Virus record (IMG/VR): IMGVR_UViG_3300021964_000493
Coordinates: 1 to 24,931 of that record
Reading direction: 5' to 3' (one strand)
Source: a virus
DNA length: 24,931 nt
Shown: in pieces, positions 1,513-21,823 of the stretch
Layout: every line of letters begins with the position of its first letter
Position numbering within the stretch: the stretch's first letter is position 1
Program-made: the position numbers and the translations under genes
Notes under the pieces: generated by a model
What the model was told of the DNA's origin: nothing
Database searches by the model: none
Seen by the model: the letters and a program-made list of their open reading frames with translations, nothing else

Positions 1513-3390
1513 TCATACCTTCATGCCTATGTTAAACAACCCATTGTTTTTGCTAAGTATTTGTTTTGAAACTAGGCGTGAAGTGAAGTCTGACCACCCA
1601 CTGTCAGAGTAGCCCTTGCCATCTGCCGCAATAGCCCGGCGCAGAACGTCAGATTTGACCCCGCGCGACCCATCTTCGTCCGTTTCTACAAATGTCCCAG
1701 CGTTTAACAGTTCAGCTAATACGTCCACGCATTGCTGCTGCCCTTCGCTTAACTTGGCCTGTTTTGATGGCTTGCCCTCAATAACGTCCAGCACCAGACT
1801 GCTTTGCTCAGACGCAAAACGGTCTTGCACAAATCGCACTTCACGCGCTTCCAGCCAGATAGGTTCGGCCTCAGATACGTCTTTTTGCTTCTGCACCACA
1901 ATTTCGACATATTCCGTGCCTGTCGTGCGTTTTATGGCGATTGATGTATCAACCGCACCTAGCAGCGCAGATGACCCACGCAAGCCCTTTTCAACGTCCT
2001 TACCGCTATGGTGAACCGCCAGCACAGAGCAATCAAACCACTCTTTCAGTAAGTCACATGACCTAATGAACATGCCCATATCTGTTGCGCTATTTTCATC
2101 TGCACCAGACCCGGCAAATGACCGCGCCAATGTATCAACCACGATAAGGTCAGGCGATACGCCACCCAGCGTGTCATCTATTGCTTGCTTTAGCTGCATG
2201 ACATCTGGCGAGTTCTCCATAGCCATACCAATCGGCGTAGTCACCGCGTAAAACGGCACATTCTCATCTGTTAACTGATGGTCACGATGCCACGCTTCTG
2301 CACGCACAGCGATGCCTGACTGCCCTTCCATAGCCAAATAGACCACTGCACCCTGCCTGGTCGGTCTGCCGTTCCAATCAACCCCGTGTGCCACTGACAA
2401 TGCCCAAGAAATAGCCACAAAACTTTTATATGACGCGGGTGCGCCAAAAAGCACAGCAAAGCTATTTTCTATGATATAATCCGCGACCATAAACGATGGC
2501 GGTGGCGTTGCACGCAGTTCGCCTAGCGTTTTGACCCTGATTTTTCGTTCAGGAATTTCTGCAATACGCCCGGCCACACTTGCCGGCGCATCTGCTTTTG
2601 CTGGCGCAACATCAATATCCGCAATCTTTCCTTCTCTTGCTCTGATAAGAGTTGCGGTGACTTTCCTTCTAAACTCATCTATTCCCCGTCCTTCAGCGTT
2701 CAAATCGCCAGTTCTGCTTTTTACTTTCGCTTCGTATGTCGGATATACGTTCTTTTCCATCCATTCAAGTGTCGGATAAGTGCCTGTGTCGCGCTTATAA
2801 TCGGCAACAGCAGCCAGAACCACCCTAGCCATAAACTTCTCGCGGCCATCAACCACATTGCCCCAAGCATCAATATCAGAACCACCCATAGGACGCTCCA
2901 AAGCGTTAGCAGCCAATCCAACAGCTTGGCTTGCCACCTTTTCTGGAAACGCTCCAAAGTCTTCGTCATTTAGCCACCTGTAACCAGTGCTTTCAGGGTG
3001 GATAACATACCCCCCATCTCCCCGGACATCCACGCAGCCATCAATACCAGCGCGATTTCGAATATCAGGAACGTGACGATAATAATAATGCCAACCGCCC
3101 GATTGCGTTTCAGCGACCCTTGTAACTCCAAGCATTTCTGCATTTTTGTCCACCCATTCTTTGCCCTGCTTGCCATCACGCACATCAATGTCAATCACTG
3201 ACACGCCGCTAACCTCTCCAGTAGGTATGCCAATCAATGCTGCACCTGATATGGCAAACAGACGTTCTATTTCGTCAGGGTCTTGTGTAGCTGCTTTGAA
3301 CCCGCCCTGACAAACTGGTCGCTTCTTGCTATCGCACGGAAAGACAGGGTAGTCCTCTGCCACTTCCAGTGCTTTGCTTATAATATCCAT
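1513..3390 (-). CDS. Primase-polymerase / RepA-like helicase fusion
   Basis: 625 aa replication protein. The N-terminal half is a bifunctional primase-polymerase (prim-pol) domain, residues about 5-150: active-site D67-I-D69 in SVIDIDV, H101 in GGWHYYY, and DVRGDGGYVIHP at 121-132. The C-terminal half is a RecA-fold ATPase like RepA hexameric helicases, residues about 295-500: Walker A GAPASYKS (316-323, K322), Walker B DLIVVD (414-419), and AVHHSGKD (458-465). Residues 540-625 look like a winged-helix tail. It should prime and unwind DNA at the fork, with the polymerase supplied by the host. Start ATG 3390 has GAGGG 6 nt upstream, inside a possible pseudoknot (3396-3460). The preceding gap of 83 bases is among the longest in the early operon. 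Confidence 0.9.
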   Translation of the reverse strand: MDIISKALEVAEDYPVFPCDSKKRPVCQGGFKAATQDPDEIERLFAISGAALIGIPTGEVSGVSVIDIDVRDGKQGKEWVDKNAEMLGVTRVAETQSGGWHYYYRHVPDIRNRAGIDGCVDVRGDGGYVIHPESTGYRWLNDEDFGAFPEKVASQAVGLAANALERPMGGSDIDAWGNVVDGREKFMARVVLAAVADYKRDTGTYPTLEWMEKNVYPTYEAKVKSRTGDLNAEGRGIDEFRRKVTATLIRAREGKIADIDVAPAKADAPASVAGRIAEIPERKIRVKTLGELRATPPPSFMVADYIIENSFAVLFGAPASYKSFVAISWALSVAHGVDWNGRPTRQGAVVYLAMEGQSGIAVRAEAWHRDHQLTDENVPFYAVTTPIGMAMENSPDVMQLKQAIDDTLGGVSPDLIVVDTLARSFAGSGADENSATDMGMFIRSCDLLKEWFDCSVLAVHHSGKDVEKGLRGSSALLGAVDTSIAIKRTTGTEYVEIVVQKQKDVSEAEPIWLEAREVRFVQDRFASEQSSLVLDVIEGKPSKQAKLSEGQQQCVDVLAELLNAGTFVETDEDGSRGVKSDVLRRAIAADGKGYSDSGWSDFTSRLVSKQILSKNNGLFNIGMKV

Positions 3391-3395
3391 TATAA

Positions 3396-3460
3396 TCCCT
3401 CAACTCCCTCGCCACCAAATTGGGGCAGCGCAGTGAGGGAGTTAAAAACCGCGCCGCCCC
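3396..3460 (-). promoter_or_regulatory. Candidate pseudoknot covering the primase ribosome site
   Basis: On the minus strand GGGGCGGCGC (3460-3451) pairs with GCGCTGCCCC (3431-3422): 10 bp with one G-U. The 19-base loop contains AACTCCCTC (3443-3435), fully complementary to GAGGGAGTT (3410-3402) downstream, giving an H-type pseudoknot with connecting loops of 7, 3 and 11 nt. The same loop also holds TCCCTCA, complementary to TGAGGGA (3402-3396), which is the Shine-Dalgarno of the primase gene. The two pairings exclude each other. There is no T-tract, so it is not a terminator. Control of primase translation is an inference from pairing. Confidence 0.55.
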
Positions 3461-3473
3461 GTCTTGTTACTGA

Positions 3474-4055
3474 TTAGATAAATTCATCATCGTCCTCAGT
3501 AGTGTCAGGCGTTGCGTCTAAGGAGGGATTTGCGTTATCGCCTGAAACCTCATTTTTGTCCAGTTCGGCTGGACGGTCAATTAGCTTCTCAATGGTAAAG
3601 CCCGGCATCTTAAAGGTCTTCATGCCCATAGATACTGGCACAGCACCGTCAAACTTCACGACAGCAGCTTTGCTGGTGTCGCCCATTTGCTCCCACTGAT
3701 TATAGACTGTCTCAATAGCCTTCTGTGCGGTGCGTGACGTATCACACCATTCGCGCAGTGGGTTAGCATCGCCAAATGCTTTCTTGCTAAACATATTGAC
3801 CAGAAAACCGCGTTCCCACTCTTTGCCATCGTCAGGCTTAGTGGTTGGCGCAGTCGTTGACGGGTCAGGTCGCCATTCTGGTCGCCCACCGTCAAATGTT
3901 TTCCAGCCAGTTTGTAGCTTTGGAAAATCAAACACGATAGGTGATGCGATAGTCGCTACACCATCGCGGTCTTTCCATTCGCCATCTGTCGGTTTCCAAC
4001 TAATATATGGCGTATATTCACTGACCTCATTTGGGTCACGAAATGATAGTGGCAT
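3474..4055 (-). CDS. Putative ssDNA-binding protein (acidic C-terminal tail)
   Basis: 193 aa from ATG 4055, with AAGGAG 7 nt upstream. The body has many aromatic and basic residues (YTPYISWKPTDGEWKDRDG near 15-33, then WERGFLVNMFSKKAFGD near 80-96, REWCDTSRTAQKAIETVYNQWE near 100-121). The last about 25 residues are low-complexity and acidic, ending EDDDEFI, reminiscent of acidic tails on phage ssDNA-binding proteins such as T7 gp2.5. It lies between a RecB-type exonuclease and the primase-helicase, where phages often encode an SSB or annealing protein. I do not recognise the family with certainty; the SSB role rests on context, tail and composition. Confidence 0.6.
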   Translation of the reverse strand: MPLSFRDPNEVSEYTPYISWKPTDGEWKDRDGVATIASPIVFDFPKLQTGWKTFDGGRPEWRPDPSTTAPTTKPDDGKEWERGFLVNMFSKKAFGDANPLREWCDTSRTAQKAIETVYNQWEQMGDTSKAAVVKFDGAVPVSMGMKTFKMPGFTIEKLIDRPAELDKNEVSGDNANPSLDATPDTTEDDDEFI

Positions 4056-4079
4056 AGTAATACTCCTTCTGTTCCACCA

Positions 4080-4844
4080 TTAAAGTCCGAAAATGCGTTT
4101 GCCTTCGGCACGCATCACGGGGTCATTCCAGTAGAAACTGGAATAGCTTGGCGCAAAGATGGTCGCCAGTTCTTTCGCGTCATTAGACAGCGCAAGTAAC
4201 TGCTGCATCCTCTTTGCCGCAATCTTAAAGTCTTCGACTAATTCTTTCGCCTCAACCGCGTTCAGTTCGTAAATCGCGTGCTTCTTCGGCGTTACATAAG
4301 CAAACATAATTTTGTGTTTTGGTCGCATCGCTTGATACAATGCGCCTTGCCGCTTGTGGTTATCTGGCATCTCAGGCGGGCAGCGCATCGTGGTCTTCAG
4401 GTCAACCGACAGCTTCGGTGTCCCGTCAAACTCAAAATCGTCAAACCCTACAATCGGCACGCCAATGCCAATGTCCAGTTCCAACGCTGTCTGCGTAGCT
4501 ATCGGCTTGCCAAAGCCGCTAAAGGCTTCGATACCTTGCCGCACATAACCGTCCAGCACTTCTATTTGCTTCTCGCGGTCTTCTTTGTCCACGACCAGCG
4601 CAGTCTCTTTATTAAATTCTTCTTTAGCCTTTTTCACCGCTTCATCTGGCGTAGCAATGCCAAACTCATCGGTCAAATACCATTCCAGCGCATGTTCGAC
4701 TGCGTTACCGCGTGCCATATTTGCATTTGTGCTGCCCCGCACACCTAGCGGATAACGCAACAGCCACGCTGCCGGGTCAGTGCGAAACATATCCACCGCA
4801 CTGTAAGACAGCCTTTTAATTCCGTGTATATCCCAAACGCTCAT
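4080..4844 (-). CDS. RecB/Cas4-type PD-(D/E)XK exonuclease
   Basis: 254 aa. It shows the RecB-nuclease motif series in order: LSYSAVDMF (12-20), the G-x4-H element RGNAVEH (45-51) with H51, D135/D136 in GFDDF, D148-L-K150 in SVDLKTT, and Q166-x3-Y170 in RQGALY. These are the metal-binding and catalytic positions of the family. No C-terminal cysteine cluster is seen, so the Cas4 iron-sulphur variant is not supported. Phage members usually process dsDNA ends for recombination or replication together with an SSB or annealase, which fits the next gene (3474-4055). Start ATG 4844 has GGAG 6 nt upstream and is preceded by a 64-base gap with a hairpin. Confidence 0.88.
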   Translation of the reverse strand: MSVWDIHGIKRLSYSAVDMFRTDPAAWLLRYPLGVRGSTNANMARGNAVEHALEWYLTDEFGIATPDEAVKKAKEEFNKETALVVDKEDREKQIEVLDGYVRQGIEAFSGFGKPIATQTALELDIGIGVPIVGFDDFEFDGTPKLSVDLKTTMRCPPEMPDNHKRQGALYQAMRPKHKIMFAYVTPKKHAIYELNAVEAKELVEDFKIAAKRMQQLLALSNDAKELATIFAPSYSSFYWNDPVMRAEGKRIFGL

Positions 4845-18075: not shown

Positions 18076-19353
18076 TTAGGCAGTGATGTCCGTAATGGCA
18101 GCAAACGACTGTGCGTGCCTAACGGCCACATCGATTTCCTGCATAACTCGGATTCTGACCGCACCTGAAGAACCGCCAGTATACGGGTCAACAAGCACAT
18201 CGCTCGTGCTAAACAAGCCAATCATCAACTGGCTAAAGTCACCAGCGATAAGTGCTGACAAGGCAGTGCCTGTGCCTTTAGTCAAGTCAGACGGAACTTG
18301 GTTCGTTACAGCCATATTGTAGCCATAAAGCGAAGTCCACGGGTCATTCAAAATCATGACGCTATCAGTCGAAGCAACTTTGGCGGTTTGTGCCAAGTGT
18401 GATTTGACTTTGCTGTTCGTCAGGAAGTTTACTTCACCGATTGCAGCGTTGTCTTGCTCAACTTCTTTGATAAGGTCAACAACTTTGCCCCAAGTAGCGT
18501 TGCCGCCATTTGTGCCAATAGCAACTGAACCAATGCCAGTCGTTTCCAAGATGCCTGTCGGCTCGTTAGAACCAGCACCTTCGATGGCAACGTCTTCGAT
18601 TTTCTGAGCAATAGCGTTCAGCAAGTCGTCACGAACAATTTGCTCGACAGACGGGTCAGACTGAATCATCAGCAGACGAGAAACGTCAGTGAAAGCACCC
18701 AAAGACTTGGGAGACATCGTGACTTGTGCAAAAGTTGCGTTGACTTCAGCGGTCGCGCCATTTTCAGCAACAAAGCCAGCAGCTACGCCACCAGACAGTT
18801 TCGGAATGGCAACATCGCCACGCAGACCAGACATGAAACGCGTGCCAAGCTGGTTCAGAACCAGACGGTTACGCAGAGCGTCAATGAATTGGTCGCCCAA
18901 GTGGTCGGTAGGCTTCAAGAAACCACCAGCACTGTCCGTGCCTACAGTCAGGTCACGTTTGCCTGTCCAGAAGCTATCAGGTGCGTAGAAGCCACGGGCT
19001 TCACGACCTTGACGCTTGGCGATTTCGTCAGAAACTTCACGCTCCAGACCATTCAGGCCAGAACCGTTAACCAAGCCACGAACAGCTTTCATAAAGCTAT
19101 AATCGCGGGTTTCTTTTTCATTCAACTCAACTGCGCCAGCAGCTTGCTCAAGCGGCTTACCTTCGGGCAGTGCGTCCAACAATACGCCACGGAATTCGTT
19201 GATGCTCATGCCTTTGGCAATGGCTTCATCAGCAAGGTCGCGTTTGTTGTGTTTTACGGCAAGAGCAGTGATTTCTTGCGCGTTTTTGGTGAATTCGCGT
19301 TTGGCAGCTTCAGCAGCTTCCAAGCGAATTTCATCAGTGTTTACTTCAGTCAT
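18076..19353 (-). CDS. Major capsid protein from internal in-frame start
   Basis: The C-terminal 425 residues of the protease-capsid frame begin at ATG 19353 (residue 334 of the fusion), preceded by AGAGGA (19366-19361) with a 7-base spacer, better than the ribosome site of the fusion itself. The product begins MTEVNTDEIRLEAAEAAKRE: a helical scaffold-like delta region (to about 140) followed by the HK97-fold shell with SFWTGKRDLTVGTDSAGGFL near the start, NEPTGILET, and a C-terminal AVRHAQSFAAITDITA. This would give the excess of capsid over protease that assembly needs. The internal start is inference from sequence. Confidence 0.72.
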   Translation of the reverse strand: MTEVNTDEIRLEAAEAAKREFTKNAQEITALAVKHNKRDLADEAIAKGMSINEFRGVLLDALPEGKPLEQAAGAVELNEKETRDYSFMKAVRGLVNGSGLNGLEREVSDEIAKRQGREARGFYAPDSFWTGKRDLTVGTDSAGGFLKPTDHLGDQFIDALRNRLVLNQLGTRFMSGLRGDVAIPKLSGGVAAGFVAENGATAEVNATFAQVTMSPKSLGAFTDVSRLLMIQSDPSVEQIVRDDLLNAIAQKIEDVAIEGAGSNEPTGILETTGIGSVAIGTNGGNATWGKVVDLIKEVEQDNAAIGEVNFLTNSKVKSHLAQTAKVASTDSVMILNDPWTSLYGYNMAVTNQVPSDLTKGTGTALSALIAGDFSQLMIGLFSTSDVLVDPYTGGSSGAVRIRVMQEIDVAVRHAQSFAAITDITA

Positions 19354-20352
19354 TTTAATATCCTCTTTGACTTCTGTAGGTTCGACAAAATTAGCATTGC
19401 GCCCAATTCCAGCACCGACATTGTCTGCTGGCACGGCCACAATACTGGCTTCGTATGGAATCCACTGATTAACAACAACCGTCCCGTCATTGCCTCTCTG
19501 TTCCATATTTTTGATGACGTATCCGATACTCACGTTTCGAACCACACCATCTTTGACATCCTCATATACTTCTCTTGCAAGCGGGTTCTTCCCGAACCGC
19601 ACAACCGCACGCAGTTTTCTATCTGCCCGGTCAAGATAAGCTTCTTCGACAATGCCAATCTGCTTAGTCATGTCGTGGTCTTTCAGCAAGGGTGCGTTAC
19701 CACTTGCGATGCGCGACATGTCAATGGCTTCTTCGGTATGTTCCAAAACTTCCATACCAAAATTACGTTCCACGGGTTCTTCGCTTGACAGCGACATGCG
19801 AACCCTGCGGTCATCTTCGTCTGTTGCCTCTACCTCAACAGCGCGGAATGTCAAAGTTGAACGGTCAAAGCGTTCTTCTTCGACAACTTCTTCAACCTGT
19901 TCTTCTTCATGCTCTTTTGCATAAACGATAGTCACAGTTTCGTCTGTTTCTTCAACATTGACGATGTGACGTGTTTCAAGTTCTTCGCTCATAGCTTCCT
20001 CATCGGTTGCGTTAGTGTCAATGCTACGCTCATCGTCTTCTTTTTTCAAGATTTCCGTGATGCCCTTCGACCAAGTAAAACCAGCATCGCCGCCCCATAA
20101 TGCCCAAGCGATGCGACCATTCGACGGATAACCGTCTTCGCCCGGTGAAAAGCCTTCTGCCTTTTTGTCAACTTCGTGGCGGCTGAAGAAAGAATACATG
20201 CGCTTGACAGTTTCTTCGGACAAGTTCTTGCCGTTCGAGATGTCACGCGCACGAGCAATGCCAACTTCAGTTCCACCGCGTCCGTGTTCGCGTCGCCACT
20301 CAAGGCCGCGCTTGGCTTCTTCAACCATTCCGTCCGTCGGTTTATACGGCAT
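18076..20352 (-). CDS. Prohead protease fused to major capsid protein
   Basis: 758 aa from ATG 20352; a GTG at 20364 is the alternative and would add four residues. Residues about 1-95 are a conserved N-terminal domain (SFFSRHEVDKKAEGFSPGED; RIAWALWGGDAG). Residues about 160-315 are the S78/HK97-type prohead protease: H226 in LLKDHDMTKQ and S275 in VRNVSIGYVI are the catalytic His and Ser, with YEASIVAVPADN at the end. From residue 334 the HK97-fold capsid follows with its scaffold-like helical region. The fusion means one frame encodes the assembly protease and its main substrate. The start overlaps the portal stop. Some phages carry such fusions. Confidence 0.9.
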   Translation of the reverse strand: MPYKPTDGMVEEAKRGLEWRREHGRGGTEVGIARARDISNGKNLSEETVKRMYSFFSRHEVDKKAEGFSPGEDGYPSNGRIAWALWGGDAGFTWSKGITEILKKEDDERSIDTNATDEEAMSEELETRHIVNVEETDETVTIVYAKEHEEEQVEEVVEEERFDRSTLTFRAVEVEATDEDDRRVRMSLSSEEPVERNFGMEVLEHTEEAIDMSRIASGNAPLLKDHDMTKQIGIVEEAYLDRADRKLRAVVRFGKNPLAREVYEDVKDGVVRNVSIGYVIKNMEQRGNDGTVVVNQWIPYEASIVAVPADNVGAGIGRNANFVEPTEVKEDIKMTEVNTDEIRLEAAEAAKREFTKNAQEITALAVKHNKRDLADEAIAKGMSINEFRGVLLDALPEGKPLEQAAGAVELNEKETRDYSFMKAVRGLVNGSGLNGLEREVSDEIAKRQGREARGFYAPDSFWTGKRDLTVGTDSAGGFLKPTDHLGDQFIDALRNRLVLNQLGTRFMSGLRGDVAIPKLSGGVAAGFVAENGATAEVNATFAQVTMSPKSLGAFTDVSRLLMIQSDPSVEQIVRDDLLNAIAQKIEDVAIEGAGSNEPTGILETTGIGSVAIGTNGGNATWGKVVDLIKEVEQDNAAIGEVNFLTNSKVKSHLAQTAKVASTDSVMILNDPWTSLYGYNMAVTNQVPSDLTKGTGTALSALIAGDFSQLMIGLFSTSDVLVDPYTGGSSGAVRIRVMQEIDVAVRHAQSFAAITDITA

Positions 20353-21823
20353 CGTCTTCACCACTTTCTATGCTCGGTGCGGCTGGCAGCTTAGTGCCAA
20401 ACGGTTCAAAGGCAGTTTCAATATCGTAGCGGCTGGCAAGTTCTTTCTCGCGGCTGACAGCCTCAAACACTTCTTCAGTGTCCTTCCCGTATTGGCTATG
20501 AACGTCTTGCAGTGAGATGATGCCGTTATTGACCGCAGTGACCGCAGCGTTGATTTCTTTCTGCGGGTCAACCCAGCTAAAGCCACGGGGTCGATAGGTT
20601 ACTTGGTCAGCAAACATATCATACTTGGTCATTGGCAGTGTTACCGCGCCAAACGTAATGGCTTGTTCCAGCCAGTCGCGATAAACGATGTCAACAAAAC
20701 TTTCGACCATAAACTGTTGCAGCATCTTAAAGTGGTCGCGGTCTTCAATCGTGCCTTGCCTGATGCTGCTGTAGCTAACGCCTTCAAGATTATTCGACAG
20801 CGACACATAGCTAACGCCAAGACCAGATGCGATGCCGCGCAAGATAGCTTTCTCAAAGTCACCAAAAGCTGTGGTCGGATGCTGCGGGTCGAAGCTGGTA
20901 AAGTTCATGCCTTCGGGCAGTTGTGAGAACGTGCCGGGTTCAGCTTCCATAATCGGTGCTGCGCCATCATAGTCATCGCCAATAAATTCGTCACCAGACG
21001 GGCTAGTAAAGAAACCCATCTTGCTTGCGCCGATGCGTGCAGCAACCAGTTCAGCTTCTTCGTAACCGTCAAGCATCTTCAGGCGCGACAGCACGTTTGA
21101 CATCATAGGCACGCCACGGGTCTGACCGGGGCGTTCTTGAATATAGGCGTGGATGATTTCCGATGCTGGCACTTGAACGTGCTTTTTCTTCGTGCGTGAA
21201 CCAAACGCTTGTTCGTGATACGGGTGGTCTTCAAACAAGAAATATGACTGCGGCTTGCCAGCGCGGTCAATCTCAACACCCATACGCACTTCGTTGCCGT
21301 TCTCTAAGCGCGTGTTGTAATCTTCATCAATATAATCGCTTTCGATAAATTGCAGCGAGAAGCCAAATGCGTTATTGCGCTGGTTCTTAACTTTGCGAAC
21401 AACAACTTCGCCATCACGCGCCAGCGTTTCAATGAACAGGCGTTGCGCTTGCAGCCACGACAAACGACCATCGACTGTGCAAGTGCCTTTGCGACCCCAC
21501 GATGTCCAAGCGGTTTCGACAACGCGGTTGCCCGGCGTGTCCAAGCTGCCATCGGTGTTGCGTTTACGCACTTGCAGCTTTACGCCAGTTGAACCGACAA
21601 CATTCGTAGTCAGGATTTGCAGATAGCGGCGCGCATATGGATGGTTGCGGCTAATCTCGCGGCAACGGTCACGCAAGACGCGCAGTGATGGTTTAATCTC
21701 GCTGTCTGCGCTTCGGCTTGATGTTACGAAGTCTGCGAACAGCCGCCCTGTGTTCGCTCCGTGATAGGCACGCTTTTGCATACGTTTCTTCGGCTGGCGG
21801 CGCAAAAAGTCAAAAAGTGCCAT
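20342..21823 (-). CDS. Portal protein, lambda type
   Basis: 493 aa from ATG 21823, GAGG 9 nt upstream, two bases after the preceding gene. It shows the lambda-B/PF05136 portal pattern: MALFDFLRRQPKKRM, the arginine-rich LRVLRDRCREISRNHPYARR (47-66) with YLQILTTNVVGSTGVKLQV, SLQFIESDYIDED, then EIIHAYIQERPGQTRGVPMMS, GVSYVSLSNNLEGVSYSSIR and RDHFKMLQQFMV. Twelve copies form the ring at one head vertex, through which DNA is packaged and released. It is followed directly by the protease-capsid gene. No truncation. Confidence 0.95.
   Translation of the reverse strand: MALFDFLRRQPKKRMQKRAYHGANTGRLFADFVTSSRSADSEIKPSLRVLRDRCREISRNHPYARRYLQILTTNVVGSTGVKLQVRKRNTDGSLDTPGNRVVETAWTSWGRKGTCTVDGRLSWLQAQRLFIETLARDGEVVVRKVKNQRNNAFGFSLQFIESDYIDEDYNTRLENGNEVRMGVEIDRAGKPQSYFLFEDHPYHEQAFGSRTKKKHVQVPASEIIHAYIQERPGQTRGVPMMSNVLSRLKMLDGYEEAELVAARIGASKMGFFTSPSGDEFIGDDYDGAAPIMEAEPGTFSQLPEGMNFTSFDPQHPTTAFGDFEKAILRGIASGLGVSYVSLSNNLEGVSYSSIRQGTIEDRDHFKMLQQFMVESFVDIVYRDWLEQAITFGAVTLPMTKYDMFADQVTYRPRGFSWVDPQKEINAAVTAVNNGIISLQDVHSQYGKDTEEVFEAVSREKELASRYDIETAFEPFGTKLPAAPSIESGEDDAV

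Follow-up and report, generated by a model that had tools for sequence, protein, structure and literature searches.

What is the short sequence that lies between a gene for a probable single-stranded-DNA-binding (SSB)-like protein and the primase-helicase gene that follows it in an uncultivated virus, and might its RNA influence how the second gene is translated? The locus belongs to a 24,931-base viral contig (the whole of which is referred to here as the window), with the genes near the element on the minus strand. The upstream gene is probably SSB-like, as judged from the acidic tail of its product, its position among replication genes and a predicted structure rich in beta strands (mean pLDDT 75). 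Searches of that protein against Pfam, PHROGs and PDB sequences gave no convincing match to an SSB, the PHROG nucleotidyltransferase match was weak (2.6e-4), and no DNA similarity to phage records was found. A Foldseek comparison of the predicted structure returned as its best PDB match chain I of 9teh (E 7e-3, probability 1.00), a structure of the phiC31 integrase-RDF synapse, which hints that these SSB-like proteins may be connected with phiC31 gp3. Elsewhere in the window, a 762-aa ORF (18076-20364) has matches to families of head maturation proteases and of major head proteins alike (phrog_80 and phrog_617), and is apparently a protease-capsid fusion.

The two genes are separated by 83 nt, within which the strands of two helices are located (Table 1). 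The first of these, stem 1, begins 13 nt beyond the SSB-like stop codon and comprises 10 bp including one G.U pair, with 13 bp possible in the minimum free energy (MFE) fold. The original prediction, a hairpin whose loop could pair either with 9 nt downstream or with 7 nt at the Shine-Dalgarno (SD) sequence, proved exact in the minus-strand sequence: the loop strand (3443-3435) is a perfect 9-bp complement of the distal word (3410-3402), and TCCCTCA (3440-3434) complements over 7 bp the proximal word TGAGGGA (3402-3396), which holds the SD of the primase ATG at 3390. The corresponding energies are -20.3 kcal/mol for the 10-bp hairpin, -14.1 for the 9-bp helix and -10.5 for the 7-bp SD helix, and the lengths of loops 1, 2 and 3 (7, 3 and 11 nt) make a pseudoknot geometrically feasible. 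A scan of both strands of the window for a stem of at least 9 bp plus a loop-downstream helix of at least 8 bp returned one site, namely the 3460-3402 element. Because 20 one-strand dinucleotide shuffles yielded 2 such sites, and because the MFE of the 105-nt region is ordinary relative to shuffles (z -0.96), the window sequence by itself is mildly unusual and suggestive only, a lead; it is comparison with relatives that establishes the element.

Table 1. Positions of the element, its flanking genes and related features (window coordinates unless a locus is named).
Feature	Location	Strand	Basis or remark
Primase-helicase (Prim-Pol + AAA_25), downstream gene, ATG at 3390	1513..3390	-	Pfam PF09250, PF13481
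SSB-like protein gene, upstream, acidic C-terminus DDDEFI	3474..4055	-	ORF
Stem 1, 5' arm, GGGGCGGCGC	3451..3460	-	sequence; MFE fold; compensatory change in L003-L008
Loop 1, GGTTTTT	3444..3450	-	sequence; GGTTT retained in all close relatives
Stem 2, 5' strand, AACTCCCTC, within hairpin loop, anti-SD-like	3435..3443	-	complement of 3402-3410; swap test across clusters
Stem 1, 3' arm, GCGCTGCCCC	3422..3431	-	sequence
Loop 3, 11 nt, would cross stem 1	3411..3421	-	inferred from geometry
Stem 2, 3' strand, GAGGGAGTT, distal G-rich word	3402..3410	-	9-bp loop complement
Proximal word TGAGGGA, primase SD and alternative loop partner	3396..3402	-	7-bp complement; marginal coevolution
Genes inserted between SSB-like gene and primase, just after element (GNAT-like ORF, cytosine methyltransferase)	L005:4510-5139, L006:4952-6001, L007:2407-3315		
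Plain A-tract/GC hairpin 3' of SSB gene, before primase-helicase	L267:2128-2165, L268:1725-1770		cultured Roseobacter phages CRP-406, CRP-831

Profile searches with the SSB-like protein and the primase recovered 133 distinct regions lying downstream of SSB-like genes. In 107 of these, both a hairpin and a start codon were usable, and these 107 were grouped into 43 clusters. Nearly all regions display a GC hairpin shortly after the SSB-like stop (gap 0-18 nt, median about 7). In about 15-18 clusters its loop complements the SD region of the next gene, through sequences that differ by cluster; many SSB-like genes are followed by a hairpin with a UUCG or unrelated loop and without stem 2. The specificity of that complementarity was examined by exchanging loops between clusters in 20,000 swaps and comparing own with swapped pairing energies, which gave -5.94 versus -4.04 (sd 0.37) for all 43 clusters, -10.19 versus -7.19 (sd 0.52) for the 20 clusters with a CUCC/UCCC loop, and -12.29 versus -8.98 (sd 0.67) for the 13 clusters with both a YUCCC loop and a downstream GGG, with 0/20,000 swaps reaching the own value in each comparison. 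The persistence of this difference among clusters that share YUCCC and GGG controls for a trivial anti-SD/SD match. The 43 clusters are not fully independent phylogenetically, and their kinship is expected to make the test conservative, since related loops pair with each other's partners as well.

Base-pair changes across the clusters bear on the RNA strand: the exceptions in stem 1 comprise 57 G.U against 2 A.C, a bias that points to stem 1 acting as an mRNA-sense RNA. Stem 2 covaries between clusters (TCCCTTGA/TCAAGGGA, TCCCTTGCCC/GGGCAAGGGA, TTTTCCCTTGT/ACAAGGGAAAA, TTGCTCCCTG/CAGGGGGCAA and ATCTCCCG/CGGGAGAT), and varies hardly at all inside single ones, so that its support comes from the between-cluster comparison. 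In alignment A7 every stem pair forms and five stem-1 pairs are changed on both sides, with stem 2 invariant (7/7 pairs); in alignment A9 one stem-2 pair is changed on both sides (A-U to C-G) and is broken in three of nine sequences. The MAFFT alignment A4 misregistered the 3' strand of stem 2 and was excluded from pair counts. When both strands of all loci (2.5 Mb) were scanned, 62 distinct matches were returned. An SSB-like 3' end lies no more than 160 nt away from 25 of these, and about ten of the others were antisense readings of the same elements.

Seven close relatives (L002-L008) were obtained by a primase search, with the element located by pattern search in L003 and L005-L008, and both helices are present in all seven. 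In L002, which is near-identical to the window, the stem 2 word GGGGGAG still pairs through G.U. In L003-L008, stem 1 reads GGGTCGGCGC/GCGCCGACCC, a compensatory G-C to U-A change. Stem 2 in the close relatives is shifted in register and still 8-9 bp long (CTCCCTCGT/ACGAGGGGG, CTCCCTCGT/ACGAGGGAG and TCCCTCGT/ACGAGGGA), and the proximal match at the SD spans just 5-7 bp, mostly SD core. Compensatory changes, the absence of which from homologues had been named in advance as the outcome that would tell against the element, were thus found, and a tertiary pairing proposed from the unaided reading of one sequence was confirmed by homologues.

The close relatives also bear on which gene the element serves. 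It directly precedes the primase in L004; in the five others apart from L002 (L003 and L005-L008, that is, 5/7 close relatives) another gene sits between them, which, as read off the translations, is a GNAT-like ORF in L003 and L005 and a DNA methyltransferase in L006-L008. Because the element remains behind the SSB-like gene despite such insertions, it belongs with the 3' end of the SSB-like gene and with the ribosome site that comes next, whatever gene that site serves, and the primase specificity of the original prediction was not upheld. In L003 (1310-1340), L004 and L007, a further small hairpin (ACAAAC-GUGGGA-GUUUGU) contains the SD in its loop, with an altered stem in the L007 version (AAACG-UGGGAG-CGUUU), and in L239 and L266 the SD is flanked by CCGCGA...TCGCGG.

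Collectively, a pseudoknot-type pairing of the loop with downstream sequence at the ribosome site is well supported. Sequence and covariation agree on two helices, one of which joins the loop of the other to a downstream strand, which is the arrangement of an H-type pseudoknot. In 14 of the 15 clusters examined, the 5' strand of stem 2 lies inside the stem 1 loop or reaches no more than 2 nt beyond it into the stem, as a pseudoknot predicts. Loop lengths fit both helices in the window and in cluster L172. In L151, L063 and L100, loop 3 is just 1-4 nt against a stem 1 of 12-16 bp, which is too short for the full distal stem 2 to coexist with the full stem 1. Comparison shows stem 1, as an RNA of the sense strand, and a specific loop-downstream pairing, from which we infer that the two would coexist as a pseudoknot. 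The reading that is favoured, and that is considered reasonably probable, is that of a cis-acting mRNA element at the SSB-like 3' end, in which an H-type pseudoknot modulates translation of the next gene relative to that of the SSB. In such a mechanism a very stable GC hairpin would expose a U/C-rich loop resembling an anti-SD, the loop would pair with G-rich sequence located either at the SD of the next gene or immediately before it, and the RNA so folded against that gene's ribosome site (here that of the primase-helicase) would alter its translation.

Whether the element also acts as a two-state switch depends on the second, SD-proximal word. With tandem words, distal pairing would leave the SD free and proximal pairing would hide it, such that the choice would set initiation; the likeliest sensors would be the level of SSB protein, or a ribosome ending at the SSB stop 13 nt upstream. 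The mutually exclusive pairings of the original prediction hold in part: they are physically exclusive in the window, and several relatives likewise carry G-rich words in tandem, which in L063, L087, L134, L151, L190, L199 and L213 are near-copies before the start codon that both complement the loop, as in L134 (CAACAGGGGGCAGGGGGCAAG), but coevolution between loop and SD word is weak once the SD/anti-SD core is controlled for. For the distal word, the own energy is reached in 0-1 of 20,000 swaps. At the best second site that does not overlap the first, the own and swapped energies are -5.09 and -3.96 among 20 clusters (60/20,000) and -7.27 and -6.32 among 13 clusters (1016/20,000). When the partner is confined to the 14, 16 or 18 nt that immediately precede the start codon, the number of swaps that equal the own pairing is 1521, 335 or 35 of 20,000, respectively, and thus depends on the choice of zone, several of which were tried. 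With the generic core discounted, coevolution of the loop with the SD-proximal word is thus at best marginal (p about 0.002-0.08, depending on the test). A mutually exclusive translational switch is accordingly no more than plausible. The fuller proposal, that the SSB-primase operon of these phages contains a translational switch of a class not described before, in which the loop would choose between tandem G-rich words upstream of and at the ribosome site according to SSB level or to ribosomes finishing SSB, with primase-helicase output following SSB, is tentative and somewhat doubtful.

An arrangement without any pseudoknot would consist of two alternative ordinary hairpins. One is stem 1; the other, a long hairpin B, would be built from the stem 1 loop and its downstream partner, enclose the 3' arm of stem 1 in its own loop and cover the SD. 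The choice would be made by a ribosome terminating at the SSB-like stop or by folding kinetics. In the window, hairpin B covers the SD words and is nearly isoenergetic with stem 1 (-24.2 versus -25.0), and the fold flips to the other state when the first 3-5 nt of stem 1 are blocked, such that a ribosome-driven exchange between the two is possible on the folding model. The start of stem 1 just 0-18 nt (median about 7) past the SSB stop would suit such an exchange, as would the incompatibility of some full-length stem 2 helices with stem 1. In most other clusters, however, stem 1 is clearly the stronger of the two, with a margin of about 2-16 kcal/mol over hairpin B, and a design of exclusive hairpins need not place the 5' strand of stem 2 in the loop, yet that is where the strand sits. 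This exchange is regarded as unlikely.

A simpler explanation would be that a highly expressed SSB gene ends in an unspecific 3' hairpin, which serves as an mRNA stabiliser or weak terminator and has a C-rich loop that matches a G-rich SD trivially. It gains from the GC hairpins found behind essentially every SSB-like gene, those with UUCG loops included, from U-tracts of 6-8 in several relatives (L043, L108 and L137), and from a stem 2 core of CUCCC/GGGAG; what renders it decidedly improbable is that own and swapped pairings still differ strongly among clusters sharing the core (0/20,000) and that covariation extends outside it. The terminator component fares no better in the window, where stem 1 is followed by CCCC AAUUUGG and not by the U-tract of an intrinsic terminator, and no terminator was called in 3000-4200. 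Across clusters, a trade-off between terminator and stem 2 was not significant (Fisher p 0.31).

A feature acting at the level of DNA (a replication origin, a primase or SSB recognition site, or an operator palindrome) would account for inverted repeats between the SSB-like and primase genes, and is very improbable given that, read as mRNA, the exceptions in the stem are nearly all G.U, a bias that disfavours the palindrome reading, that the pairing partner follows the next gene's ribosome site, and that the element persists beside inserted non-replication genes. Recoding, in which the pseudoknot would stimulate readthrough or frameshifting at the SSB stop, is suggested by a 13-nt stop-to-stem distance in the window that resembles the spacing of known stimulators, and can be set aside with similar assurance, since a second in-frame stop precedes the stem 1 loop in 11 of the 43 clusters (including the close relatives L003-L005) and no slippery site was seen before the SSB-like stop.

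The pseudoknot at the SSB-like 3' end has partial precedents. The claim that no described RNA class has this form stands insofar as Rfam returned no family at gathering score for the window and 20 relatives, with nothing meaningful at relaxed thresholds; the logic of a pseudoknot helix beside a ribosome site, by contrast, is precedented in ColIb-P9 repZ and the T4 gene 32 operator. In the former (an IncI-alpha plasmid), as summarised in PMC8383071, which cites Asano and Mizobuchi 1998, translation of a replication gene requires a pseudoknot that immediately precedes its ribosome site, and an Inc antisense RNA is involved; the position is similar here, where an effect on translation could be of either sign, and the setting differs in being a phage with an SSB-like gene upstream. 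The gene 32 translational operator of T4 and RB69 is likewise a phage mRNA pseudoknot by a ribosome site in an SSB context, where it is recognised by the SSB itself (PMC535899, PMC3014915), and might serve as a model for recognition of the present element. That operator, however, lies 5' of the SSB gene and controls it, while the present element follows the SSB-like stop at a distance of 13 nt and is turned towards the next gene; the UUAAA repeats of the operator were not seen in the element. The STAXI motif (RF01728) of Enterobacteriales also occurs near SSB genes, and comprises two or three tandem pseudoknots, often with UUCG (PMC2864571), unlike the single pseudoknot described here, and its covariance model was unmatched at gathering score in the window and 20 relatives. 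The element is therefore a member neither of the T4 gene 32 operator, by position, nor of STAXI, by model match.

In the SAM-II, preQ1 and SAM/SAH riboswitches, the second helix of an H-type pseudoknot uses the SD region. The H-type fold of the SAM/SAH riboswitch has been described (PMC7367207). Unlike such SD-sequestering riboswitches, the element displays no Rfam match and no conserved sequence resembling a ligand pocket, and outside the pyrimidine core its stems and loops vary freely between clusters. The cultured Roseobacter phages CRP-406 and CRP-831 have the same gene order, with plain hairpins and no stem 2 at the junction. Their annotated SSBs have no detectable homology to the SSB-like protein of the window, and the junction hairpin thus recurs with seemingly unrelated SSBs.

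These analyses describe a recurrent and fast-evolving RNA element, absent from Rfam, by which many uncultivated phages link an SSB-like gene to the gene behind it, in most cases one for replication. Were the mechanism of loop choice true, it would provide such phages with a compact means of balancing replication proteins from one mRNA.
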